DNA of 64,000 nucleotides from Alphaproteobacteria bacterium (GTDB taxonomy: Bacteria > Pseudomonadota > Alphaproteobacteria > Micavibrionales > Micavibrionaceae): assembly GCA_030147745.1 (NCBI GenBank), contig JASBUS010000094.1:62001-126000 (forward strand), written 5' to 3'. Within the stretch, counting starts at the first letter, position 1; the number at the start of each line of letters is the position of its first letter. The position numbers were made by a program, and so were the translations under genes. This document shows, one piece after another, positions 5,714 to 55,313 of the stretch. The notes under the pieces are model-generated. The model saw only the letters and a program-made list of their open reading frames with translations. It had not been told where the DNA came from and did not search any database.

Positions 5714-6488
5714 TGAGATGATTAGTATCCTTGCCCCTGCATTTTGTGCAGGGGTTTTGATATCCCTAACGCATGTGGTTTTGGGGCAAGAAGTTTTAAA
5801 ACGCGGGATCATATTCCTCGACCTTGCCGTCGCCCAATGTGCAGCATTAGGGATGATGAGTTTTAAGCTTCTAACCTTTATTGACCCATATAGTTTTATT
5901 GGGCAATACGGCGTAATTGGCGCGGGTTTATGTGCGGCGCTTATCTGCGCCTTTCTTTTTAAAGCATTAGAAAAAGCGCAGCATTTTCAAGAAGCGTTAA
6001 TTGGCTGCACCTTTGTGCTTGCGGCGAGTTTATCGATCATGCTAACGGCGAATGCACCGCATGGCGCAGAAGATATAAAAAACATTCTTGCAGGACAAAT
6101 TCTTTGGACGACATGGCATGATGTATGGCTATGCGCCCCTGTCTTCATCACACTTTTTTTAACATGGCAGTTTTTACCCTTTTTCCGCACCACCTTATTT
6201 TATCCGCTATTTGCGATTGCCATTCCCTTTGCCGTCAACATCATGGGGGTGTATTTAGTCTTCGCGAGTTTGATATTTCCCGCGCTTGCGGTCGCGCAAA
6301 ATGCGCAGCATAAAACACGCGACGCATTACTAATATCATTGCTGTCATACGGATTGGGGTTATGGGCCTCAAGCGCCTTTGACTGGCCATCAGGCCCCGC
6401 GATTGTTTTGGCTATGGCGATGCTTAGTGCGGGCTATTATCTGATGTCAAAAAATAGCGGGATCAAGCTTTTTAGGCGCAGCAAGTAA
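5706..6488 (+). CDS. Metal ABC transporter permease (ZnuB-like)
   Basis: Integral membrane protein of 260 residues with about eight hydrophobic segments, belonging to the ABC-3 family of zinc/manganese permeases. The motif GVLISLTHVVLGQEVLKRG near residues 16-34 is the usual start of this family. It overlaps the binding-protein gene by 8 bases, so both are made together. No gene for the partner ATPase is found in the cluster or the window. Its 3' end overlaps the 3' end of the opposing gene by about 40 bases. Confidence 0.85.
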   Translation: MNSEMISILAPAFCAGVLISLTHVVLGQEVLKRGIIFLDLAVAQCAALGMMSFKLLTFIDPYSFIGQYGVIGAGLCAALICAFLFKALEKAQHFQEALIGCTFVLAASLSIMLTANAPHGAEDIKNILAGQILWTTWHDVWLCAPVFITLFLTWQFLPFFRTTLFYPLFAIAIPFAVNIMGVYLVFASLIFPALAVAQNAQHKTRDALLISLLSYGLGLWASSAFDWPSGPAIVLAMAMLSAGYYLMSKNSGIKLFRRSK

Positions 6489-15212: not shown

Positions 15213-15842
15213 ATGGGATTATTTGATCGTTTAAAAGATGCTGTGCGCGAAAGCTTTGCTCCGCTTGAGGAGCCAAAAGCCAATAGCCTTGATATCGAAA
15301 GCCTAAACGGTCAATTACAAGAAGCCAAAGCCCTTGGTTTTTGTATCACACATTTATGCCTTGATGGTGATTTAGACATCGAACAAATCAAAGCGGCGTT
15401 TTGTCCATCGCTTATTCATACCGCCCGTATGATTTATATGAATGACTTTGACGCCGAAGGTTTAAGCATTGAAGACATGCAAAACGCCCTGCGCCATGAA
15501 TGGCTGCTCCATTATGGTGAGGCGATCTTCATCCAAAAATCGCAGCAATATGGCCTTGGTACGGATACAGCGCTTACTGATTACAGCTTTGATGTGATCG
15601 ACGCGATTGATGAAGAACTAAATGACAAGAATAAAGTCATGTTTGATATGTTTTGTAGCTTCATGGGATACCGCAATGGTGAAATGCACCCACAGCGCAT
15701 GATTGACTGTGTTGACTACGCCATCGAAAACGGCCTTAGCGACACACGTGAATTAACCCATTGGTTCCCTGTCGCCAATGCGATGATTGATGATATTGAT
15801 CCACCTGCGCAGCAAAAGACGGTTGCACCCAACGCCCCATAA
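15213..15842 (+). CDS. Unknown soluble protein (209 aa)
   Basis: The ATG follows an AAAGGAAAAG ribosome site. The protein is acidic and predicted mostly helical, with no signal peptide or membrane segment, and ends in a Pro/Gln/Ala-rich tail. Motifs such as WLLHYGEAIFIQ and FCSFMGYRNGEMHPQRM are visible but I cannot link them to a family. It is 15 bases upstream of the DUF455 gene and may be co-transcribed with it. Confidence 0.6.
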   Translation: MGLFDRLKDAVRESFAPLEEPKANSLDIESLNGQLQEAKALGFCITHLCLDGDLDIEQIKAAFCPSLIHTARMIYMNDFDAEGLSIEDMQNALRHEWLLHYGEAIFIQKSQQYGLGTDTALTDYSFDVIDAIDEELNDKNKVMFDMFCSFMGYRNGEMHPQRMIDCVDYAIENGLSDTRELTHWFPVANAMIDDIDPPAQQKTVAPNAP

Positions 15843-15857
15843 CGCTATATAGGCGGC

Positions 15858-16685
15858 ATGGATAAAATTGACCTGACATATTGCGCCTGCAAAGTTCTAC
15901 GCACAGATAATGCCGAAGAAAAGGCGCGCTTAACACGCCAATTTAGCGCCGAGATTTTGGCGGCGCCTGAACGCGTTATGATCGGCAGTGAACAGCCTGA
16001 CCTGCGCCCTGCCCGTCCTGCTAAGCCCGAATTACTCGCCCCTGGTAAAATGACCCGCCGCCGCAATGCAGGGTCAACCAAAACCAAAATCACTTTACTG
16101 CACGCGATCGCGCATATTGAATTAAACGCCATAGACCTTGCATGGGATATGATTGCCCGCTTCGCCCCACTCTATAGCGCCAATTCAGATGAATTTAGCC
16201 TACCGCTCGATTTCTTTATGGATTGGTTTAGCGTCGCCGCAGATGAAGCCAAGCATTTCCTGCTGCTGAATGATTATCTAAAAACATTCGACGTCAGCTA
16301 TGGTGATTTTCCCGCCCATGACGGACTGTGGGAAGCCGCAGAAAAAACGCATCACGACCTTGCCGCGCGCCTTGCCGTTGTGCCTATGGTGTTAGAAGCC
16401 CGCGGGTTAGATGTCACACCACAGATGATCGACAACTTCACCGCGCAGGGGGATGACGATACGGTTGCTATCCTGAAAATCATTTTAGAAGAGGAAGTCA
16501 ATCACGTCCGTATTGGCCGCGTCTGGTTTGAATATTTCTGCAATACTCATGGCCATGACATCGAAAGCCACTGGCAGCATTTAGTGCGCGAATATTTCCA
16601 CGGCAAATTAAAACGCCCTTTTAATCATGATGACCGTTTCAAAGCCGGCATGATCCGCGATTGGTATGAACCGCTCGCCGATTAA
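15858..16685 (+). CDS. DUF455 family ferritin-like protein
   Basis: The 275-residue protein belongs to the DUF455 family of ferritin-like four-helix proteins. Carboxylate/His motifs expected to bind a di-metal centre are visible: HAIAHIELNAIDLAWD (about 78-93), ADEAKHFLLL (about 130-139) and EEEVNHVRIG (about 213-222). Family members are often found near tRNA-modifying or oxidative-metabolism genes, and the reaction is not established. The start at 15858 gives a normal family length. It shares direction and a short gap with the upstream unknown gene. Confidence 0.85.
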   Translation: MDKIDLTYCACKVLRTDNAEEKARLTRQFSAEILAAPERVMIGSEQPDLRPARPAKPELLAPGKMTRRRNAGSTKTKITLLHAIAHIELNAIDLAWDMIARFAPLYSANSDEFSLPLDFFMDWFSVAADEAKHFLLLNDYLKTFDVSYGDFPAHDGLWEAAEKTHHDLAARLAVVPMVLEARGLDVTPQMIDNFTAQGDDDTVAILKIILEEEVNHVRIGRVWFEYFCNTHGHDIESHWQHLVREYFHGKLKRPFNHDDRFKAGMIRDWYEPLAD

Positions 16686-16727
16686 TATAAAAGCGGTTAG
16701 CGAGTTGGGGACAAGAATAGACAGCCC

Positions 16728-16751
16728 TTGACCGCAATGCTAGGCTAGCTC
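16728..16751 (+). promoter_or_regulatory. Alphaproteobacterial-type promoter candidate for rocD
   Basis: TTGACCG followed after 9 bases by GCTAGCTC resembles the Caulobacter housekeeping pattern (TTGACGS, short spacer, GCTANAWC). It sits about 30 bases before the rocD start. The spacer is one base shorter than the usual range. Confidence 0.35.
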
Positions 16752-16783
16752 CAGATCATAATGAATAAAAGGGAGCGTCACTC

Positions 16784-44430: not shown

Positions 44431-44967
44431 TTAGGCGCGCTTCTTAGCTTTTAACACATCGCTTAGGGCGTTTAAGGCATCATCTTCGGCGGGCGATGTA
44501 CGCATTTCTTTCTTAAGCTGCGGGTTTGCGATGCCGACAACCATATTTGAAAGCGCACCCCACATGCCTTTTTCATCTTCGTCTTCATTTTCATCGAATG
44601 CGCCGGCGATATAGGTCGCGATACCCATGACAAGTTCCTTATAGGCTTTAACTTCATTATCAACCAAACGGCCATCAAGCAATTTGATTGCCGCCGCGAC
44701 ATCATCTAATGCCGCTTCGCTTTCGCGTTCCCAATGCGGCCAATATTTTTCACGGCGCAAGGCTTCTTCCGCCATTTCAGATATAATCGGGCTTGAGGAA
44801 AACTTACCGATAGATTTTTTAAGGTAACGTTTTAGCGCCTCACGTTCCGCTTCATCCGCCTCACATGCGCCATCGTCATCAATATGGCTCATCCAGACGC
44901 CTACTTTATATAATGACCCTGCGAGGATATTTTGCTCATCAGGGTGAAAGATATGAAAGTCGGCCAT
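44431..44967 (-). CDS. Unknown acidic protein, tandem-pair second copy (178 aa)
   Basis: Soluble, acidic, mostly helical protein preceded by AAAGGA 8 bases before its ATG. It aligns with the upstream gene from end to near end: LYKVGVWMSHID versus PYRVGYWISQSD near the N-terminus, then a matching acidic E-x-E-x(3)-AL segment, a W-x-x-W pair and the L-x-x-x-IA helix. The C-terminus is replaced by an acidic linker (DENEDEDEKG) and a Lys/Ala-rich tail. No recognised family. Confidence 0.7.
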   Translation of the reverse strand: MADFHIFHPDEQNILAGSLYKVGVWMSHIDDDGACEADEAEREALKRYLKKSIGKFSSSPIISEMAEEALRREKYWPHWERESEAALDDVAAAIKLLDGRLVDNEVKAYKELVMGIATYIAGAFDENEDEDEKGMWGALSNMVVGIANPQLKKEMRTSPAEDDALNALSDVLKAKKRA

Positions 44968-45003: not shown

Positions 45004-45570
45004 TTAAAACATATTTGCTGGTGGGATGGACAACACATCGGCAAGCTGACGCAGCGCCAGATATTCATCACCCGAGATGTTATAGAGATACGCACCAGTA
45101 CGCGGGGCACGGCCTTCGCGCCATGCATAAATACGCTCACGCACCATAACCCAAATTTTTTGAACGTCGGTTAGGAATGCGTCTTCATCAATTTCACGAT
45201 ATGCCAATGCTACAGACAAGCCAATTTCATAGAGATTTGAACGCAAGGCGTCCATTTCACGTGGTGGTAACTCATCCGATAATTTTGCGATTAACTGGCG
45301 ACATTCATTTGGCACAAGGCTTAAATTGCTTTGCCAGTCCAGCCATTTATCTTTATTTTCGACCGTTAGCTCCATAATACGCTGTACAAATTCAGACTTA
45401 CAGAAGTCTTCTGAATAGCCGCGCACGATTGTCGCCAAAGCCGCAAGTTCTTGCTCTTCGGACTCATCGCCACCCGTTGTATCGGATTGAGAAATCCAAT
45501 AGCCAACGCGGTAAGGCATTTTGACCAGCATATCTAGTTCTTCTTGTTCTAAACGCTCAATGAAATCCAT
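45004..45570 (-). CDS. Unknown acidic protein, tandem-pair first copy (188 aa)
   Basis: I start at the ATG at 45570, which has an AGCAGG site 6 bases ahead, instead of a GTG 15 bases upstream. Predicted soluble and helical. It shares a family with the following gene (YRVGYWISQSD, then acidic residues, W-x-x-W and a helix ending in ALAY). The pair is separated by 36 bases and transcribed together, upstream of odhA on the same strand. Function unknown; the Tyr-x-Val-Gly-x-Trp-(I/M)-Ser motif is the clearest family mark. Confidence 0.7.
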   Translation of the reverse strand: MDFIERLEQEELDMLVKMPYRVGYWISQSDTTGGDESEEQELAALATIVRGYSEDFCKSEFVQRIMELTVENKDKWLDWQSNLSLVPNECRQLIAKLSDELPPREMDALRSNLYEIGLSVALAYREIDEDAFLTDVQKIWVMVRERIYAWREGRAPRTGAYLYNISGDEYLALRQLADVLSIPPANMF

Positions 45571-45648
45571 GGCAGACCTGCTCACATAAATTGATTCAAA
45601 AACATCTAATAGAATATCACTTTACGCAGCGCATTAAAAGACGAAAGC

Positions 45649-45680
45649 AAAAAAAAGCAGGCGTTCCGAAGAACGCCTGC
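45649..45680 (-). terminator. Strong terminator with UUCG loop (unit C)
   Basis: A perfect 10-bp stem (GCAGGCGTTC with GAACGCCTGC) closed by CGAA on the plus strand, TTCG on the minus strand, is followed on the minus strand by eight T. There is no protein gene immediately upstream, so it must end another transcript. Confidence 0.9.
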
Positions 45681-45738
45681 CCGCATTATATAAGGCTCTA
45701 AATATAGTTTTCTAAAAATACTTTACATCTAATTCGCA
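45649..45738 (-). ncRNA. Candidate sigma-54-driven small RNA (unit C)
   Basis: From the -24/-12 site at 45749-45764, the expected start is at about 45738, giving an RNA of roughly 90 bases that ends in the UUCG-loop terminator. It carries only a 13-codon frame (from about 45739, M-R-I-R-C-K) without a ribosome site. Its first bases (minus-strand AUGCGAAUUAG, 45729-45739) are complementary to the stop-codon region of the small-protein mRNA of unit B. Strand and boundaries are inferred. Confidence 0.45.
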
Positions 45739-45748
45739 TCTTATAATA

Positions 45749-45764
45749 AGCAAAGCCTATGCCA
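45749..45764 (-). promoter_or_regulatory. Sigma-54 promoter candidate (unit C)
   Basis: Minus-strand TGGCATAGGCTTTGCT matches TGGCACR-N4-TTGCW at all positions but one (T for C at the sixth), with GG and GC 10 bases apart as required. A terminator lies 69-100 bases downstream. Confidence 0.5.
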
Positions 45765-45909
45765 CGTGCCATGCCAAGATTTTATCCATATATATCAATA
45801 ATTTATAAATTTTTACCATAATCTTAAATCATAGCAACCGTCCCGTTTTAGAACTATAGTTTTGTTCATTGTCGCAAAATGAAACGCCCCTACTATGCCG
45901 TATATTTTC

Positions 45910-45939
45910 AAAAAAAAAATCGCCGGCATTGCACCGGCG
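45910..45939 (-). terminator. Terminator of unit A
   Basis: A 6-bp GC-only stem (CGCCGG with CCGGCG, 7-base loop) is followed on the minus strand by A and ten T. It resembles the unit B terminator in stem sequence, which suggests common origin. Confidence 0.88.
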
Positions 45940-46018
45940 TTAATGTGGGATCAAGTAGGTATTTGTGTGTATGAGTCTGTGTGTTTTAAAATTCTGATCG
46001 AAGGGTCGTCACTTCAAA

Positions 46019-46139
46019 TTAAAATGGCAACATCATGCTGATATAATAATTTATGTTATTTGGAATAATCTGCTCAACATTTCCTACAAAAGCCGAAGCC
46101 ATCCCGACGCCTAAAACTGCATATATATAATTTCCCATT
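46019..46139 (-). pseudogene. Frameshifted copy of the 39-residue MGN...MMLPF small protein
   Basis: The ATG at 46139 has GAGGA 5 bases upstream. The frame begins M-G-N-Y-I-Y-A and continues as a hydrophobic segment to residue 19. In a run of four T (46080-46083) the reading frame shifts by one base relative to its homologue, giving a stop after 21 codons (stop at about 46074). Removing one base restores a homologue ending IPNNINYYISMMLPF with a stop at 46019. The promoter, ribosome site and terminator are intact, so it may be a recent break, a programmed shift, or a sequence error. Confidence 0.6.
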
Positions 46140-46193
46140 TCTTTTCCTCAAACTTATAAAAATAATCTATAAAAATTTAACCAATTTACATAA

Positions 46194-46209
46194 TGCAAAC
46201 AGTGTGCCA
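46194..46209 (-). promoter_or_regulatory. Sigma-54 promoter (unit A)
   Basis: Minus-strand TGGCACACTGTTTGCA is a full match to TGGCACR-N4-TTGCW with correct 10-base GG-GC spacing. The expected start at about 46183 leaves a leader of about 44 bases before the unit A ATG. Confidence 0.75.
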
Positions 46210-46220
46210 GTTTTACAAAT

Positions 46221-46247
46221 AAGAAAAACACCGGCATTGCGCCGGTG
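46221..46247 (-). terminator. Terminator of unit B
   Basis: A 7-bp stem (CACCGGC with GCCGGTG, 5-base loop) followed on the minus strand by TTTTTCTT. It lies about 70 bases after the unit B stop and just downstream of the unit A promoter region. Confidence 0.88.
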
Positions 46248-46267
46248 GTTTTGTGAGTTTATGTGGG

Positions 46268-46303
46268 AGGCATTTGAGTGTGTGTGAGTGTGGGTGAATG
46301 CCT
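46268..46303 (-). other. CA-rich looped hairpin in unit B 3' untranslated region
   Basis: A perfect 7-bp stem (AGGCATT with AATGCCT) holds a 22-base loop that on the minus strand is made almost only of C and A. Unit A has a matching CA-rich stretch without the stem. Such unstructured CA-rich RNA can bind regulatory proteins. Confidence 0.45.
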
Positions 46304-46316
46304 GTTCACATGCGAA

Positions 46317-46436
46317 TTAGAATGGCAGCATCATCTCTACATAATAGCTAACATTATTTGGGATCATTTGATCCACATTGTTGACCAATAGAGTTGTTAA
46401 AACTAGAGCGATTAAACCGTAAAAAATATTTCCCAT
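46317..46436 (-). CDS. Small hydrophobic protein, 39 residues (unit B)
   Basis: Too short for routine gene calling, but well supported. The ATG at 46436 has AAGGA about 9 bases upstream; the frame starts M-G-N-I-F-Y-G, has one hydrophobic segment (about 4-19), a polar turn NNVDQMIPNN (20-29) and ends SYYVEMMLPF. The neighbouring unit carries a homologous sequence sharing MGN, IPNN, YY and MMLPF at the same positions. It has its own sigma-54 promoter and terminator, so it is a one-gene unit. Likely a membrane-bound small protein; toxin-like or regulatory roles are open. Confidence 0.75.
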   Translation of the reverse strand: MGNIFYGLIALVLTTLLVNNVDQMIPNNVSYYVEMMLPF

Positions 46437-46483
46437 TTCCACTATCCTTCTGTAAGCCGTCTCGTTAAACCTGATTTAACATA

Positions 46484-46499
46484 AGCAATCGCTGTGCCG
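46484..46499 (-). promoter_or_regulatory. Sigma-54 promoter (unit B)
   Basis: Minus-strand CGGCACAGCGATTGCT matches TGGCACR-N4-TTGCW except for the first base, with 10-base GG-GC spacing. The expected start at about 46473 leaves a leader of about 37 bases. The -24 half overlaps a hairpin that could terminate plus-strand RNA. Confidence 0.72.
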
Positions 46500-46520
46500 A
46501 ATAATTTGGCACAGTTTTTT
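46492..46520 (+). terminator. Plus-strand terminator overlapping the unit B promoter
   Basis: A 7-bp stem (CTGTGCC with GGCACAG, 9-base loop) is followed on the plus strand by six T. No plus-strand gene precedes it for over 7 kb, so it may end an antisense RNA across units A and B, or be a fortuitous structure around the promoter. Confidence 0.5.
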
Positions 46521-46642
46521 CCATCTATCCTATTGAATTTATTACATTTATGAAAAATCTTAAAAAGACACACACCAGTGCTTATGGAAATATTTGCCTA
46601 GCAAAAATTGCCGTTATGGAAATTTTTTCCATATTTTTTAGG

Positions 46643-49338: not shown

Positions 49339-49378
49339 GACTATCTATCCTCTATTTATCGCTTAATGATGATTTAAT

Positions 49379-49948
49379 TTATTCGGTTTCTACCATCACA
49401 GGGTCGTGAATTGCAATCTTAAATATTGCCAATGTCGCCGATAATGGCGCATCACCGCCACATTCACGCCCCGCGCAGAACGCTTCTAACTTCACGCGCC
49501 AGTCTGGATGATACATATCCGCATGTCCCATAAAACGCTCAAAGCTTGGGAAAAGATCAGTGCTACGCGCTTCGATGCGCAGTAAGCCTTCTTCATATTT
49601 ATAGGTCAATACTGGATAATGCTTATTCGCGGCATCAATAAAGCCGGCCATTTCTTCATCCGTTATCGGCACACGGCTCAACACGGGCACAACAGGCACC
49701 AAGGCCTCACGCGCTTGCAATTGAACGCGCGCAGATTCAACCATACCAGACTGAATAACAATCACAATAGAAAGCACCAAAGCCACACCAAGCGGCACCA
49801 CGGCGATTGTCAACATACTGCCTTGCGCAACAAGCGTTAGGAATTCACCCATTTGACGCTTGAAACGGTTCCAAAAGCGCATACGCTCCAAACGCGCATT
49901 ACTGCCCGAGCCAATAAATACATCAATGAGATCATTAATTATGCCCAT
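49379..49948 (-). CDS. PilO/GspM-like inner-membrane protein
   Basis: 189 residues with a short cytoplasmic part, one membrane helix (about 45-67) and a periplasmic alpha/beta domain. A coiled-coil-like stretch (QARVQ..., about 70-85) is followed by LLRIEARSTDLFPSFERFM and SATLAIFKIAIHD, typical of the ferredoxin-like fold of PilO/GspM. Two Cys (FCAGREC) may form a disulphide. It directly follows a GspL/PilN-like gene. Family call is from architecture and is tentative. Confidence 0.55.
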   Translation of the reverse strand: MGIINDLIDVFIGSGSNARLERMRFWNRFKRQMGEFLTLVAQGSMLTIAVVPLGVALVLSIVIVIQSGMVESARVQLQAREALVPVVPVLSRVPITDEEMAGFIDAANKHYPVLTYKYEEGLLRIEARSTDLFPSFERFMGHADMYHPDWRVKLEAFCAGRECGGDAPLSATLAIFKIAIHDPVMVETE

Positions 49949-51055
49949 TTATTGCCCCCATGACAGATAACCACGCACACGCACGCGGCCATATTTATCT
50001 GGTGTTGATAATTGTTCAACCTTACGCGCATTGACGTTGCTTAAATAAGCTTCAGGCACAAGTGCATCCCATTTCATACGCCCATCACGCTGCAATTCAT
50101 AAAGCACCAAAGTGCCTTCATTGGCTTCCATTTCTGATAACAACAAGCCCAAATCCGCCATAACGGGATGAATACGCGAAGAGCGCACTTCACGAGAGAG
50201 CACCTCGAGTCTATTCACAGCCTCTTTTGTATCAATCTCCGCCTGTTTGATATCCGCACTGACGGAGCTTGTCACAAACGCGCCTGTACCGATATAAATA
50301 ACCAAAAGCAAATTCAGCAAAATACCAAAACCAAACAAAATACGAAGCGTCGCGCGGCGCAATGTTTCATCACGCAAATTCGCGTGCTTCCAACGCGGCG
50401 TTTCACCTGTATAAGTGTGCAGGTTACGATAGTTCGAATCAATTACCTGCGCGCGGGCATTAATGAAGCGTGGTTCGCCTTGCTGAATAACAACATCCGT
50501 ACCGCCTTCTTCAAAATAAAGCAGTGTAGATTTATTTTCTTTTTCGAAGACATAAGCGTGGTGCATATCCCAGTGCGCCGCCTGCCCCGGAAGCGCCAAG
50601 ATCATTGGACACCAAGTATCTGGGAAAGATGATAAGTCTGATGCTGGCGCGGCGATGTACCAAATACGCCCCTCATGGACACTATATTTATAAAAAATAT
50701 TGCTGGTGCCGCAACCTTGCGTTGCCGCCTTAATCACCAAGTCATCTTCTACGCCGCCGACATGCGGCAGAACACCACCAATCAAATTTGGCGGAACATA
50801 AGCCGAAAGCGCCGCTATGACAGGCTCTTCACCAGCGATTTTCTCGGTAATAAATGTTTCGATGCGTTTTTCAGGAGATAAACCATCACTGACCTCAGCC
50901 ATGGCATCCTGTGCGGCGCGATGCAAGACCGCATCATCAAAGTCCGAAAAACTACCCTCTTCGAACTCAACAGGCTGCGGGCCTTGAAGCGATGGCTCAA
51001 CGCGCTTTTTCTTTTTGTCGCTACTGCGTGCTTTGCCTTTAAAGAACCAAACCAT
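49949..51055 (-). CDS. GspL/BfpC-like assembly protein (PilM-PilN fusion type)
   Basis: 368 residues. The first ~240 are cytoplasmic, with a disordered acidic start and an alpha/beta part with YVFEKENKSTLLYFEEGG and VIQQGEPRFINARAQ, resembling the reduced actin-like domain of GspL/BfpC. One membrane helix (about 245-268) is followed by a coiled coil (about 275-305) and a small periplasmic domain ending in RVRVRGYLSWGQ. Such proteins link the inner-membrane motor to the secretin. It sits 2 bases downstream of the ASH-domain gene and abuts the PilO-like gene. Assigned by layout, not by clear homology. Confidence 0.55.
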   Translation of the reverse strand: MVWFFKGKARSSDKKKKRVEPSLQGPQPVEFEEGSFSDFDDAVLHRAAQDAMAEVSDGLSPEKRIETFITEKIAGEEPVIAALSAYVPPNLIGGVLPHVGGVEDDLVIKAATQGCGTSNIFYKYSVHEGRIWYIAAPASDLSSFPDTWCPMILALPGQAAHWDMHHAYVFEKENKSTLLYFEEGGTDVVIQQGEPRFINARAQVIDSNYRNLHTYTGETPRWKHANLRDETLRRATLRILFGFGILLNLLLVIYIGTGAFVTSSVSADIKQAEIDTKEAVNRLEVLSREVRSSRIHPVMADLGLLLSEMEANEGTLVLYELQRDGRMKWDALVPEAYLSNVNARKVEQLSTPDKYGRVRVRGYLSWGQ

Positions 51056-51057
51056 GC

Positions 51058-52392
51058 CTATTCCGCACCATAATCAACAAATTTTGTTCGATCGCTCGCC
51101 GTCAATGAACGCTCGAAAGGTAAGTTAATTTCAATATCTTCATAAATCATTCTGACCGCATCGCTGCGCAGTTTCACATCCCAACGAAATCCCGCCAAGC
51201 GCGTTTCACGGCCGTTATAGACCATGGTGTAACCTTCAGGCGATGAAATCATCGCACGGTCTTTTGCAAATGAAGATACATAATAATTTTTAAGCGTATC
51301 GCGCGTTGGGCGCACCTGCAATGTTTGCAGCGTTGAATCATATTCCTCGCTATCCACCACAGATACAAGGGCGTTCCCCGTCACGGGAATATAATGAATA
51401 CGGTCTAAAGACGTTACCACTACACGGTTATCAATTTCACCAATTGATGATGGGATCCACTCAACCTCGATCATACAGGTTTCGCCCGGCGGCAGGGTAA
51501 CGCCCGCCTTACAGATACTATTAACCATAGAAAGGCCTGTTGTGGCTTTTTCAAAATGCACGGCATCAAGCTTAATATCTTCCGCCGTCGTATTCTTTAA
51601 ATATGTTGTGAAGCGTGTAACATGGTCAACGCGCCCACCGAAATCGATTGCATCCACAAAGAAGAGCAAATCTGCTTTCGCATATTCAGGGTTTACCATC
51701 ATCTCGCTTGCTTTAGTACGAATATGCAATGGCAAGACACCAATATCACCTGTATGCGAGATTTTTAAAAATGTTTCATCGTCACCCGCTTTTTGTGGAC
51801 GCCAGAACACGCTTAAACGGCAAGATTCACTTGGTTCAACGCGTGAACAATCATGACGATAAGACAAGCCTGATGTTGTTGGGTTTTCCAAATGGAAGTT
51901 ACGCACCATTAACGGCAAAAGCGCCGCATTACGCAGCAATAAAACTTCCTCATAAAGGTCTGGCTGCGCCTGATTTTCATCACCGACAAATTCAACTTCA
52001 CGGCTATCGGTACGGAGTGCACCATCTTTATAATCCGCACGGCGCGGTACAAAACGCGCCGAAAGCGGAATATTGGCCTTAATCGAGCCCGAGCCATCTT
52101 CACGCGACACCAGCATTTCAGCCTTCCATGGGCCAATCATACTCGGCTCAATTTCAATAGGCATTACGAACTGACCCGGTGTTTTTAGCGCCTCTTGCAG
52201 TAAGTCTTGATCCGCCCCCTCAAGCACGATGCCTGAGCGGTCTTCACCACTTGTCGCGGCCCATGGGTCATTAAAACCATTTGCGAATGCATTCTGCCCG
52301 ATTGGCGACAGCGCCAATACAGACGATGCGAGCGCCGCAAGCATAAGCGGCGCTTTAAAAGTGAAATGACGATGTTTATTTTCATGCTGCAT
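51058..52392 (-). CDS. Periplasmic protein with two ASH-type domains and a PilP-like end
   Basis: A signal peptide (cleaved near residue 38, NAFA) precedes about 400 residues. Two immunoglobulin-like (ASH/choice-of-anchor) repeats are marked by paired Cys: SGLSYRHDCSRVEPSESCRLSVFWRP (about 166-191) and GLSMVNSICKAGVTLPPGETCMIEVEW (about 280-306). The C-terminal part (about 375-440; GYTMVYNGRET then GFRWDVKLRSDAVRMIYEDI) looks like the small beta domain of PilP/GspC secretin-binding proteins. This combination is new to me. Its position between the secretin and GspL-like genes supports a linking role. Confidence 0.55.
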   Translation of the reverse strand: MQHENKHRHFTFKAPLMLAALASSVLALSPIGQNAFANGFNDPWAATSGEDRSGIVLEGADQDLLQEALKTPGQFVMPIEIEPSMIGPWKAEMLVSREDGSGSIKANIPLSARFVPRRADYKDGALRTDSREVEFVGDENQAQPDLYEEVLLLRNAALLPLMVRNFHLENPTTSGLSYRHDCSRVEPSESCRLSVFWRPQKAGDDETFLKISHTGDIGVLPLHIRTKASEMMVNPEYAKADLLFFVDAIDFGGRVDHVTRFTTYLKNTTAEDIKLDAVHFEKATTGLSMVNSICKAGVTLPPGETCMIEVEWIPSSIGEIDNRVVVTSLDRIHYIPVTGNALVSVVDSEEYDSTLQTLQVRPTRDTLKNYYVSSFAKDRAMISSPEGYTMVYNGRETRLAGFRWDVKLRSDAVRMIYEDIEINLPFERSLTASDRTKFVDYGAE

Positions 52393-52409
52393 GCTTAAAC
52401 ATCCCTATC

Positions 52410-53792
52410 TTATTTCGATGGCATTGGCGGCCAAGGCGCGCCTTCTGGCACCAAAATCATTGGCTCATCACCAATGGACTGCCAAATATTTGTTTGCTCT
52501 TCACGGGCATCATCCGCGCGCGGCACGCCGTTTATGCCGTAGTAATCCTTACGCGCCTTATAGACGACAACTTTAGGACGGAGCATAATCACCAATTCTT
52601 CATTTTCAGGATGTTCTGCATCGCCGACATTGCGCATCATACCCGCCAATAGCAATGAGTCGCCCGGACGGATACGCATTTGCGTTCTAATTTCTTTTTC
52701 CACTACGCCCGCTAAACGCAAGTCCAGATCAGAAAATACAGATGAACCATCCCATAATGATGAAAGACCGATTTTAATTTCTTCTGGCTTAGTGCCCTCC
52801 GCCGCATTATCCGCCTTCACATTCCAAAGGCCGTTTGCGCCAGACATCACGGAAATTGTCGGCTTCGACAGAACCTGCACATCACCAAATTCTGACAAGA
52901 ATTTTGAAATATCATACATGCCATAGGCATCACCTAAGTCACCCGGCAAACCAATTGAAATAGGCGCACCATATTCACCCGCATATAGGCCTGCGACTTT
53001 TTGCGCGCGACCTTCTGCGCCTTGCAGCAAGCTATCCCACTGCACACCAAATTGGCTGTGGCGACCAAGGCGCACATTCCAAATACCAACCTCATAATTA
53101 ATTAGCGCCATATTACTACGCAGCTTTGCGAAATAATGCGCAAGGCTTGCCGCCTGTTTGCGTGTAGATTTATACAGCAATGTGCGGGTCGACATATCAA
53201 CAATTGGTTCTTCACCAATCACTTTTGCGATAGATTTCGCCACATCATGGATAATATCGACATTTGCGCCTGATGGTGGAATTGTCACAGCATAATCATG
53301 TTCGTTTTGCACGGTCAGCACGTCGTTTTTATACACACAGTATAAGTCAGACATTTCACAAAGCTGCTCAACCATTAAATCCAAACGGCCCTGCAAATTC
53401 GCGATTGTGACTTTACGCTGCCCTGCCAAATTGGTTTCAACCGCCAAAGGGATATCAAATTCAGAAAGAATGAATTGCAGCGCACCCGCTAAGCTCTCGC
53501 CGCGCAGTTCATATGGACCAATATCATCACGTGGTAAATTTTGTGTTGTCACAACATCAGGGATTAAAACGCCCTGTCCCAGCGGCATAAAGCGCACAGA
53601 TTCAATTTTTGGCTGAAGATTATCTTGCGGCTGCGGATGCACGGCCATGGCATCAAGCCCTAATGATGTCGGCGCAAAAATACCCGCATCAACCATGGCG
53701 CGATCAAAGCTTTCACACGCCGCCAATTGCAATACCGCTATGGATACAAGCCCAAGCTTAACAACTTTACGGGCGTTACCTAGGAACAACAT
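52410..53792 (-). CDS. Secretin lipoprotein, R64 PilN-like
   Basis: Outer-membrane secretin of a type IVB pilus or related machine. I start at 53792 since it gives a lipoprotein signal (MLFLGNARKVVKLGLVSI...) with lipobox LAAC; a longer frame upstream (to 53900) has no better site. N-terminal N0/N1-like domains carry GALQFILSEFDIPLAVETN and TLLYKSTRKQAASLAHY, and the secretin channel has LSEFGDVQVLSKPTISVMSG and RTQMRIRPGDSLLLAGMMRN. About 460 residues, somewhat short for PilN. The three genes after it are probably partners; no ATPase, platform or pilin gene is present nearby. Confidence 0.72.
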   Translation of the reverse strand: MLFLGNARKVVKLGLVSIAVLQLAACESFDRAMVDAGIFAPTSLGLDAMAVHPQPQDNLQPKIESVRFMPLGQGVLIPDVVTTQNLPRDDIGPYELRGESLAGALQFILSEFDIPLAVETNLAGQRKVTIANLQGRLDLMVEQLCEMSDLYCVYKNDVLTVQNEHDYAVTIPPSGANVDIIHDVAKSIAKVIGEEPIVDMSTRTLLYKSTRKQAASLAHYFAKLRSNMALINYEVGIWNVRLGRHSQFGVQWDSLLQGAEGRAQKVAGLYAGEYGAPISIGLPGDLGDAYGMYDISKFLSEFGDVQVLSKPTISVMSGANGLWNVKADNAAEGTKPEEIKIGLSSLWDGSSVFSDLDLRLAGVVEKEIRTQMRIRPGDSLLLAGMMRNVGDAEHPENEELVIMLRPKVVVYKARKDYYGINGVPRADDAREEQTNIWQSIGDEPMILVPEGAPWPPMPSK

Positions 53793-53943
53793 CAGGATAG
53801 AATACCCAATACAAAAAAAATTAATCAACACGATATGCGCCACAAAGCGCACAAAGAAAAAAGCCTTCGAACAAGGCATCGACCATTCATAATAGCCCAT
53901 ACCCCAATCAAAGGCAATTGATCACTGGAATTTATTTAAGATT

Positions 53944-54228
53944 TTACCCGTCAAACTTCGGCAGATTATTTGCCTTAGCAACTGGCGTGTCATTTTTAGC
54001 CTCTGCGGTCGGCAATACAATGCTTTCCTCGCCCGCCTTATAAATGATCGACGAAATCCCTAAAGTTTCTGCAGCAGCTATACGGCCACCAACTTCTAGT
54101 TTCGCGCTTTCACCAATTTCTGGAAGGTTTTTCAACGTCAATGCGGCAATAACACTTTGTGTCATGCTGTCTAGCTGCGCCTTGTCTGTTGTATTCGCAT
54201 ATGCGACAAGCTGTGTTTGTTCGGTCAT
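53944..54228 (-). CDS. Small unknown protein (94 aa)
   Basis: Soluble Ala/Thr-rich protein of 94 residues with no Cys or membrane segment. It starts at an ATG at 54228 and is followed 150 bases later by the secretin gene, whose start may lie in that gap. It could be part of the same operon as the pair upstream (54282 and 54753 genes) and the secretin. I recognise no family. Confidence 0.55.
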   Translation of the reverse strand: MTEQTQLVAYANTTDKAQLDSMTQSVIAALTLKNLPEIGESAKLEVGGRIAAAETLGISSIIYKAGEESIVLPTAEAKNDTPVAKANNLPKFDG

Positions 54229-54281: not shown

Positions 54282-54698
54282 TTAACGGACGACAAATTGC
54301 AAATGATGCACAACCTGTTGTTCTTGAACCTTTGTAACCAACAAAATACGGCTATCGTTTTTTACCGCCTTTTGGTCTTCATCTTGTAAGAATAGGTTCA
54401 AGTATGCCACAGAACCGCTATTTTGTACAATAGAAAATTGTTTAATCTCGCTATCATACTCGATCCAGCTTGGCACATCGCCTAAGTCCTTCATCACCAC
54501 CAGAACTGTTCGACCATTATGACGCACAAAAGAGGCGCTATTCTGGATTAAACCATCCGTTCCTTTAAGTGGTTGATCAGACTGAGCAGATGATACCGGC
54601 ACAGCTGAGCCCTTCTTACGTTTCCCAACATACAGACAAAAGGTAAAGAATTTCTTTATTTTTGCAAAAAGAGCCACAGAGATTGAATCCTTGAACAT
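54282..54698 (-). CDS. Unknown protein, FVRH-domain pair, shorter copy (138 aa)
   Basis: Has a short hydrophobic, basic N-terminus (about 6-27) that may sit in the membrane, a disordered linker, and a C-terminal domain of about 85 residues. That domain is shared with the next gene upstream: FVRHxGRxVLVV, DVPxW(I/L)EY, FSIV, SRILLVT and VVHHL/IVHHL occur at matching positions. The paired His and aromatic residues could be a binding site. Located just upstream of the secretin cluster on the same strand. Confidence 0.68.
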   Translation of the reverse strand: MFKDSISVALFAKIKKFFTFCLYVGKRKKGSAVPVSSAQSDQPLKGTDGLIQNSASFVRHNGRTVLVVMKDLGDVPSWIEYDSEIKQFSIVQNSGSVAYLNLFLQDEDQKAVKNDSRILLVTKVQEQQVVHHLQFVVR

Positions 54699-54752
54699 GA
54701 CATGACTAAAGTAGACAAGACCATTATGGCAGGGTCAGCGTGATATGTTAGG

Positions 54753-55313
54753 CTATTTCAGCAAAAACATCAAATGATGCACGATTTTTTCGCCATCGCC
54801 GCTCGTCACCAACAAAATTCGACTTTCCTCTTCCAAATCTTCGATATATTTCGCATCAACCTTCAAGTCAATATGTGCGACCTGACCATCCATCATCACA
54901 ATTGAAAAATGGCTAATTTGCTTCTGATATTCCAGCCATTGCGGCACATCAGGCAGCATATAATCCACCACCAAGACCTGACGCCCTTCATGGCGCACAA
55001 ACAAGGCGTGATGATCAAGGATAAGCTGACCACGCTTATCCGCACCATCTTCTAGACTAAGCGGCGCATCACTCTTTAGGGGCTTCCAGCCGCGCTCATT
55101 ACTAATTTCATCATCGCCGTAATCGGACACATCATAATCAAGCCCGTCATAATCATCACTTTGCACGGCTTCAAAATCATAGCTTTCGTCTGGCGCATCC
55201 TGAATGGGTGCTTCTTCGATGCCGCGCATACGCTTAAACACCCAATACAATATGCGAAAGGGTGCGGTCAAAATATACAACAAAATTCTAATGACTATTA
55301 ATAAGGCGTCCAT
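54753..55313 (-). CDS. Unknown membrane-anchored protein, FVRH-domain pair, longer copy (186 aa)
   Basis: Begins with a hydrophobic helix (MDALLIVIRILLYILTAPF, about 3-25), then an acidic Tyr/Asp-rich linker (about 38-72), and ends with the FVRH domain common to the following gene (ALFVRHEGRQVLVV to KIVHHLMFLLK, about 103-186). The shared domain begins just before the FVRH motif and runs to the C-terminus, with conserved Trp-x-Glu-Tyr. Probably a tandem duplicate. It is divergent from pyrB. Confidence 0.7.
   Translation of the reverse strand: MDALLIVIRILLYILTAPFRILYWVFKRMRGIEEAPIQDAPDESYDFEAVQSDDYDGLDYDVSDYGDDEISNERGWKPLKSDAPLSLEDGADKRGQLILDHHALFVRHEGRQVLVVDYMLPDVPQWLEYQKQISHFSIVMMDGQVAHIDLKVDAKYIEDLEEESRILLVTSGDGEKIVHHLMFLLK

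Follow-up and report, generated by a model that had tools for sequence, protein, structure and literature searches.

Secretin machines are usually viewed as gated channels through which cargo is pushed by a cytoplasmic ATPase, and the locus described here raises the question of what a secretin does in a gene cluster that has no motor. The window, as we call the 64,000-nucleotide stretch of alphaproteobacterial DNA that was analyzed, carries 4 adjacent open reading frames on its minus strand between positions 49379 and 53792, encoding in order a secretin, an ASH protein, and 2 proteins designated c4 and c6. A first-pass annotation of the window had described this same tight run of 4 genes, and the adjacent open reading frames confirm it. 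That annotation took the run for the alignment half of a type IVb pilus or type II system and offered 2 explanations for the missing motor: components encoded elsewhere in the genome, or a different secretin-based device. The source genome (2.39 Mb in 101 contigs) is 98.6% complete. The genomes compared are metagenome-assembled genomes, and the window's genus is sampled as 3 of them, the source genome (G000), G001, and UBA2705 (G002); ARS11 is likewise a member of this genus.

The secretin (52410 to 53792, minus strand, 460 amino acids) is a predicted lipoprotein with the lipobox LAAC, as is expected of the secretin of a type IVb pilus. It is divergent, scoring 15.9 bits against PF00263, below the curated cutoff of 27.5, where a relative from a full system (L042) scores 61.8. 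It matches the MshL family (E = 1e-12), a profile of its own family matches the BfpB structure (E = 3e-19), and its nearest families include PilN/MshL. The reading frame stays open up to 53900; because of a conserved ATG at 53792 and a terminator-like hairpin with a T run at 53863 to 53877 on the same strand, the later start at 53792 is favored. Since this hairpin, which is present in the ARS11 locus (L032) as well, precedes the secretin, it suggests that the 4 genes may form a transcription unit apart from the 3 genes upstream.

These 3 genes, all on the minus strand, encode a 94-amino acid protein (53944 to 54228) found in all 3 genus members and 2 copies of a family designated c15, the second at 54282 to 54698 and the first, with an N-terminal transmembrane segment, at 54753 to 55313. 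A link of the 94-amino acid protein or the second c15 copy to the device is unproven, and an operon of 7 genes including the 94-amino acid and c15 genes is not claimed, given the terminator-like hairpin before the secretin in 2 species. The tandem c15 pair (54282 to 55313) has a single homolog beside pyrB in G012 and weaker homologs scattered in the family. Elsewhere in the window, 2 tandem related proteins of 178 and 193 amino acids (44431 to 44967 and 45004 to 45585) are conserved in ARS11 and have no Pfam match. They are followed by about 1 kb without a long open reading frame (45586 to 46642), in which neither Rfam nor tRNA searches gave a match; L032 has a comparably sized gap at the same place (15760 to 16752).

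The ASH protein (51058 to 52392, minus strand, 444 amino acids) has a signal peptide and matches PF15780 (E = 3e-10), consistent with an exported, periplasmic, Ig-like protein. Compared with full systems, it is shorter by about 47 residues in its N-terminal region. The c4 protein (49949 to 51055, minus strand) is a predicted bitopic inner-membrane protein in the position of GspL or BfpC, with a cytoplasmic N-terminal region of about 235 residues, one transmembrane segment at about residues 237 to 255, and a periplasmic C-terminal region. The c6 protein (49379 to 49948, minus strand) is likewise bitopic, with one transmembrane segment and a periplasmic domain, and is PilO/GspM-like by position and topology. 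Searches of Pfam, NCBIfam, and the PDB assigned neither protein to a family, with PDB matches at chance level. BfpC/PilO2 (PF06864) is marked by an actin-like cytoplasmic domain, and c4 agrees with it in topology but has no Pfam or PDB match to it; PilO/GspM is marked by a ferredoxin-like periplasmic domain, and the likeness of c6 to it is again one of topology. The names GspL/PilN-like and PilO-like are thus putative ones drawn from topology and gene order, and no protein family backs them. AlphaFold models made from 3 sequences for c4 (pLDDT 40) and 2 for the secretin (pLDDT 31.5) were unusable. The best-conserved cytoplasmic patch of c4 spans residues 161 to 206; a reading of this patch as a docking site for the ATPase that disappeared together with the motor was dropped, as distant full systems bearing the ATPase keep 12 of 33 residues and the window protein keeps 11 of 33. 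Among 385 genomes sampled across the class, c4 is present in 12.

Synteny in relatives, one of the checks named at first pass, speaks directly to the origin of the cluster. Family relatives carry a complete operon at the same site, beside pyrB-plsY-dprA-topA, in the order response regulator, secretin, ASH protein, ATPase, platform, c4, c6, and 2 pilin-like genes, with a prepilin-peptidase-like gene adjoining it. The ATPase is GspE-type (PF00437, E = 3e-77), the platform (family c9) is GspF-type (PF00482, weak within the family and E = 8e-15 in L067), and the last 2 proteins have a pilin-like hydrophobic N-terminus. The pilin-like genes of 4 relatives (L071, L073, L075, and L078) lie between c6 and asd, in some together with a response-regulator/Hpt gene. 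Because the order secretin-ASH-ATPase-platform-c4-c6-pilin is shared by distant alphaproteobacterial families (L064 to L068, although L066 has its pilin genes at a separate place), we consider it ancestral. In G040 and G047, pilin-like genes of family c12 are scattered genome-wide, with 44 and 26 copies, and such large families suggest variable fiber subunits or tip proteins. A literature search did not find a description of this complete operon with its ASH protein and many-copy pilin-like genes, which is carried by bacteria related to the predator Micavibrio. In the ARL-13 genome paper, a type II system is reported whose annotation lacks GspCGHK (PMC3189940); as a guess, that system may represent the window operon in its full form.

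Set beside these loci, the window has nothing where the central genes of the full system would be: the junction between the ASH protein and c4 (51056 to 51057), the site of the ATPase and platform genes, spans 2 nt in L032 and 3 nt in L038 and is near-identical across the 3 species of the genus. The site of the pilin-like genes in relatives is a 40-nt spacer between c6 and asd (49339 to 49378). The comparison of gene content and order shows the cluster to be what is left of a complete type IVb-pilus-like machine, which the ancestor of the Micavibrio-like family carried between pyrB and asd, and the first-pass annotation was right to read it as the alignment half of such a machine or of a type II-like one. 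On the genus stem, the machine lost its ATPase and platform, its 2 pilin-like genes, the response regulator, and the prepilin peptidase encoded nearby. Loss is preferred over the assembly of parts because relatives have the full operon at the same site and other families have the same gene order.

Could the missing parts be encoded elsewhere? The window's genome was searched family by family with profiles for T2SSE, T2SSF, c9, and c12. No T2SSE or T2SSF copy was found on the window's contig (C93), and the absence of an ATPase, platform, prepilin, or peptidase gene from the window, reported at first pass, is confirmed by the list of open reading frames together with these searches. The platform c9 had no match in any of the 3 genus genomes, whereas 103 of the 142 genomes of the order were matched. 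Pilin-like c12 genes are absent from G000 and G002, and G001 has 1 weak, distant copy away from the locus; most relatives keeping the full system have several to 44, and the 6 genomes of the family without secretin and platform (G005, G007, G015, G020, G029, and G034) are also without c12. The lone c12 relative in G001 (L080, contig C8, 8203 to 8922) lies beside an 841-amino acid protein that looks DotL-like by eye. Family c14 is absent from the window locus, as is a prepilin peptidase; an A24 peptidase is present in the MSHA/T4a locus.

The genome does encode 5 T2SSE ATPases, typed as PilB/MshE-like, PilT, and PilU (all 3 of the MSHA/T4a kind), Tad, and DotB, and G001 and G002 likewise have 5 each with scores matching those of G000. 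Its T2SSF proteins are found only at the MSHA/T4a and Tad loci (contigs C74 and C36), each of which has its own secretin. From the types of the ATPases and these dedicated secretins, a hidden or borrowed cognate motor seems unlikely. The genome search that the first-pass annotation called for therefore returned no cognate ATPase, platform, or prepilin gene, and its suggestion that the cluster works with remote components is not supported; pilus loci with their own secretins, the finding it had named as a refutation, do exist elsewhere and refute that suggestion while leaving the existence of the cluster untouched. The dedicated assembly ATPase, platform, and pilin of a type IVb pilus are missing, and so are GspE, GspF, and GspG of a type II system. 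An assembly gap was rejected as the reason for the missing motor, as 3 genomes agree. The DotB-type ATPase lies beside a TraI/DotC-type protein (PF16932, E = 2e-78) at positions 6414 to 9109 of contig C13 (L037), a pair which suggests that this genome encodes a type IVB (IncI/Dot-like) secretion system.

The genes that remain show no sign of neglect. Measured against ARS11, dN/dS is 0.104 for the secretin, 0.059 for the ASH protein, 0.051 for c4, and 0.033 for c6, within or below the range of 0.049 to 0.116 for asd, pyrB, plsY, dprA, and topA, all of these values being rough because dS is near saturation (about 1.1 to 2.1). The 4 genes are thus under strong constraint and not decaying. Their earlier history was different. 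The 4 kept proteins are 23% to 34% identical to those of full relatives, which are 53% to 61% identical among themselves, and the equivalent values for flanking genes are 51% to 68% and 58% to 72%. In trees, the genus stem branch measures 1.78 substitutions per site for the 4 proteins and 0.56 for the flanking genes, a figure that is if anything overstated because the flanking-gene tree has no outgroup, while the present-day path from the window to L032 is 0.155 and 0.125, respectively. By these branch lengths, the 4 kept genes evolved at about 3 times the flanking-gene rate on the genus stem and under ordinary constraint since.

A structural change accompanies this history in the secretin, whose segments we delimited with the published domain limits of BfpB, covering gates and barrel segments (PMC12114550). 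Aligned on these limits, gate 1 is reduced from 25 residues in relatives to 11 in the window and gate 2 from between 15 and 24 residues to 3; inner strands 2 and 3 have 19 residues in place of 29, and the last outer-barrel segment has 33 in place of 50. The remaining segments, namely the N-domains, outer-barrel segment a, and inner strands 1 and 4, are full length. The amphipathic lip of GspD/PilQ structures presumably falls in the region included in the last outer-barrel segment. Judged against BfpB, gate 1 of the window secretin is mostly gone, hardly anything of gate 2 is left, and the membrane lip is partly missing; the 2 gate hairpins inside the barrel that are typical of the secretin family are not there. 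The gate region is trimmed in all 3 species of the genus, UBA2705 included.

Reduction of this system is not confined to the window's genus. Among the 142 genomes of the order, c4 occurs without the platform in the window genus and in 2 more genomes, each a single representative. One (G446) has the order pyrB-peptidase-c4-c6-pilinA-asd, and the other (G041) has a peptidase, a 224-amino acid N-terminal fragment of the ATPase without the catalytic domain, c4, c6, and asd, the fragment being a separate gene (L077, contig C16, 4805 to 5479). Both retain c4 and c6; since their kept sets differ beyond these 2 genes, one shared new function is not established. A further candidate, G493, was rejected, as its contig ends inside c4.

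What, then, might the 4 proteins build? That selection keeps their genes intact after the loss of motor, fiber subunits, and gates suggests that a pilus machine has been converted into some other structure of the cell envelope, and the first-pass annotation was right to suspect a different device. We lean, by somewhat more than an even chance, toward a static, motorless, non-filament trans-envelope complex. The lipid of a secretin-derived ring would anchor it to the outer membrane, with the ASH protein placed in the periplasm; c4 and c6 would be inner-membrane components, and the domain of c4 would point into the cytoplasm. Such a complex would no longer extrude a filament, and its role may be that of a tether, scaffold, or signaling link from the envelope to the cytoplasm. 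The fuller evolutionary account, in which a type IV pilus machine became a motorless, filament-less, ungated trans-envelope structure with a new function, with c4 and c6 likewise kept without the platform in 2 other lineages, one of them with the ATPase fragment, we put forward tentatively, at a little less than an even chance.

The loss of gates could also yield an open conduit instead of a static scaffold. The secretin would then form an outer-membrane pore, always open or plugged in some other way, that a substrate crosses with no ATPase motor, and c4 and c6 would control access at the inner membrane; 2 trimmed gates in a secretin whose N-domains, inner strands 1 and 4, and segment a of the outer barrel are full length would suit such a pore. 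However, an ungated secretin pore is expected to leak, no substrate gene is apparent nearby, and 17 residues of the outer barrel and lip, a region thought to be key to membrane insertion (PMC7545093), have gone too, and we regard the conduit as unlikely. A motor could also be borrowed, with the PilB-PilC pair of the MSHA/T4a locus or the motor of the Tad locus driving the window's alignment complex, and both exist in this genome, with matching ATPases in G001 and G002. That each serves a locus with its own secretin argues against such sharing, as does the identity of only about 27% to 32% between their assembly ATPases and the lost one, orthologs of which are 72% to 85% identical among relatives. 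Cognate pilin-like genes and gates are lost as well, and borrowing strikes us as distinctly improbable.

The 2 remaining explanations are decay and transfer. The cluster could be a decaying remnant heading for full loss, an outcome already reached in the 6 family genomes from which the system is wholly gone. The open frames, dN/dS of 0.03 to 0.10, near-identical junctions in 3 species, and a present-day rate like that of housekeeping genes all run counter to decay, which we think very improbable; apparent frameshifts in UBA2705 were rejected, the breaks being runs of N. Horizontal transfer from a distant reduced system, in place of deletion at the site, would fit the observation that the window proteins are about as distant from members of their own family as those are from the systems of other families. 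But the cluster occupies the same site between pyrB and asd, the tree puts a long, 100%-supported branch between the window genus and the systems of other families, the genus falls outside the sampled family members just as it does for housekeeping genes, and no reduced donor was seen, so that transfer is scarcely credible. If the static complex that we favor is real, a conserved secretin complex without motor, fiber, or gate would mean that the alignment half is useful on its own. Full, partly reduced, and lost states within one bacterial order would amount to a natural dissection of the machine, which can be used to test what GspL/GspM-type contacts and those of the secretin N-domains do.

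A motorless or ungated secretin system, or a link between ASH proteins and pili, was not found in the literature searched, a coverage that mostly excludes subscription journals, and the cluster is best placed by its nearest known relations. Like the type IVb pili BFP of Escherichia coli and the R64 thin pilus, it has a lipoprotein secretin, nearest to BfpB, and a bitopic protein of the inner membrane that, like BfpC/PilO2, has a large cytoplasmic part (PMC3984277), and the full relatives of the window genus add the ATPase, platform, and pilin-like genes. It differs from BFP and R64 in that the window genus lacks a cognate ATPase, platform, and pilin, that its secretin is without most of both gates, and that none of the BFP or R64 family models is matched by c4 or c6. 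All 4 kept genes are homologous to those of the complete alphaproteobacterial operon (L039 to L053 and L064 to L068), in the same order and, within the family, at the same site, whereas 2 central and 2 distal genes of that operon are missing from the window genus. The MSHA/T4a and Tad pili of the window's own genome are secretin-based machines of the same superfamily, but they have their own secretin, motor, and platform. The mitochondrial type II system (miT2SS, PMC8134430) is another reduced secretin machine, in which the ATPase, platform, pseudopilin, and secretin C-domain persist but GspL and the N-domains of the secretin do not. The window cluster retains the opposite half, with the N-domains and the proteins in the GspL/M position kept and the motor, platform, pilin, and gates lost, which makes it a mirror image of the mitochondrial one.
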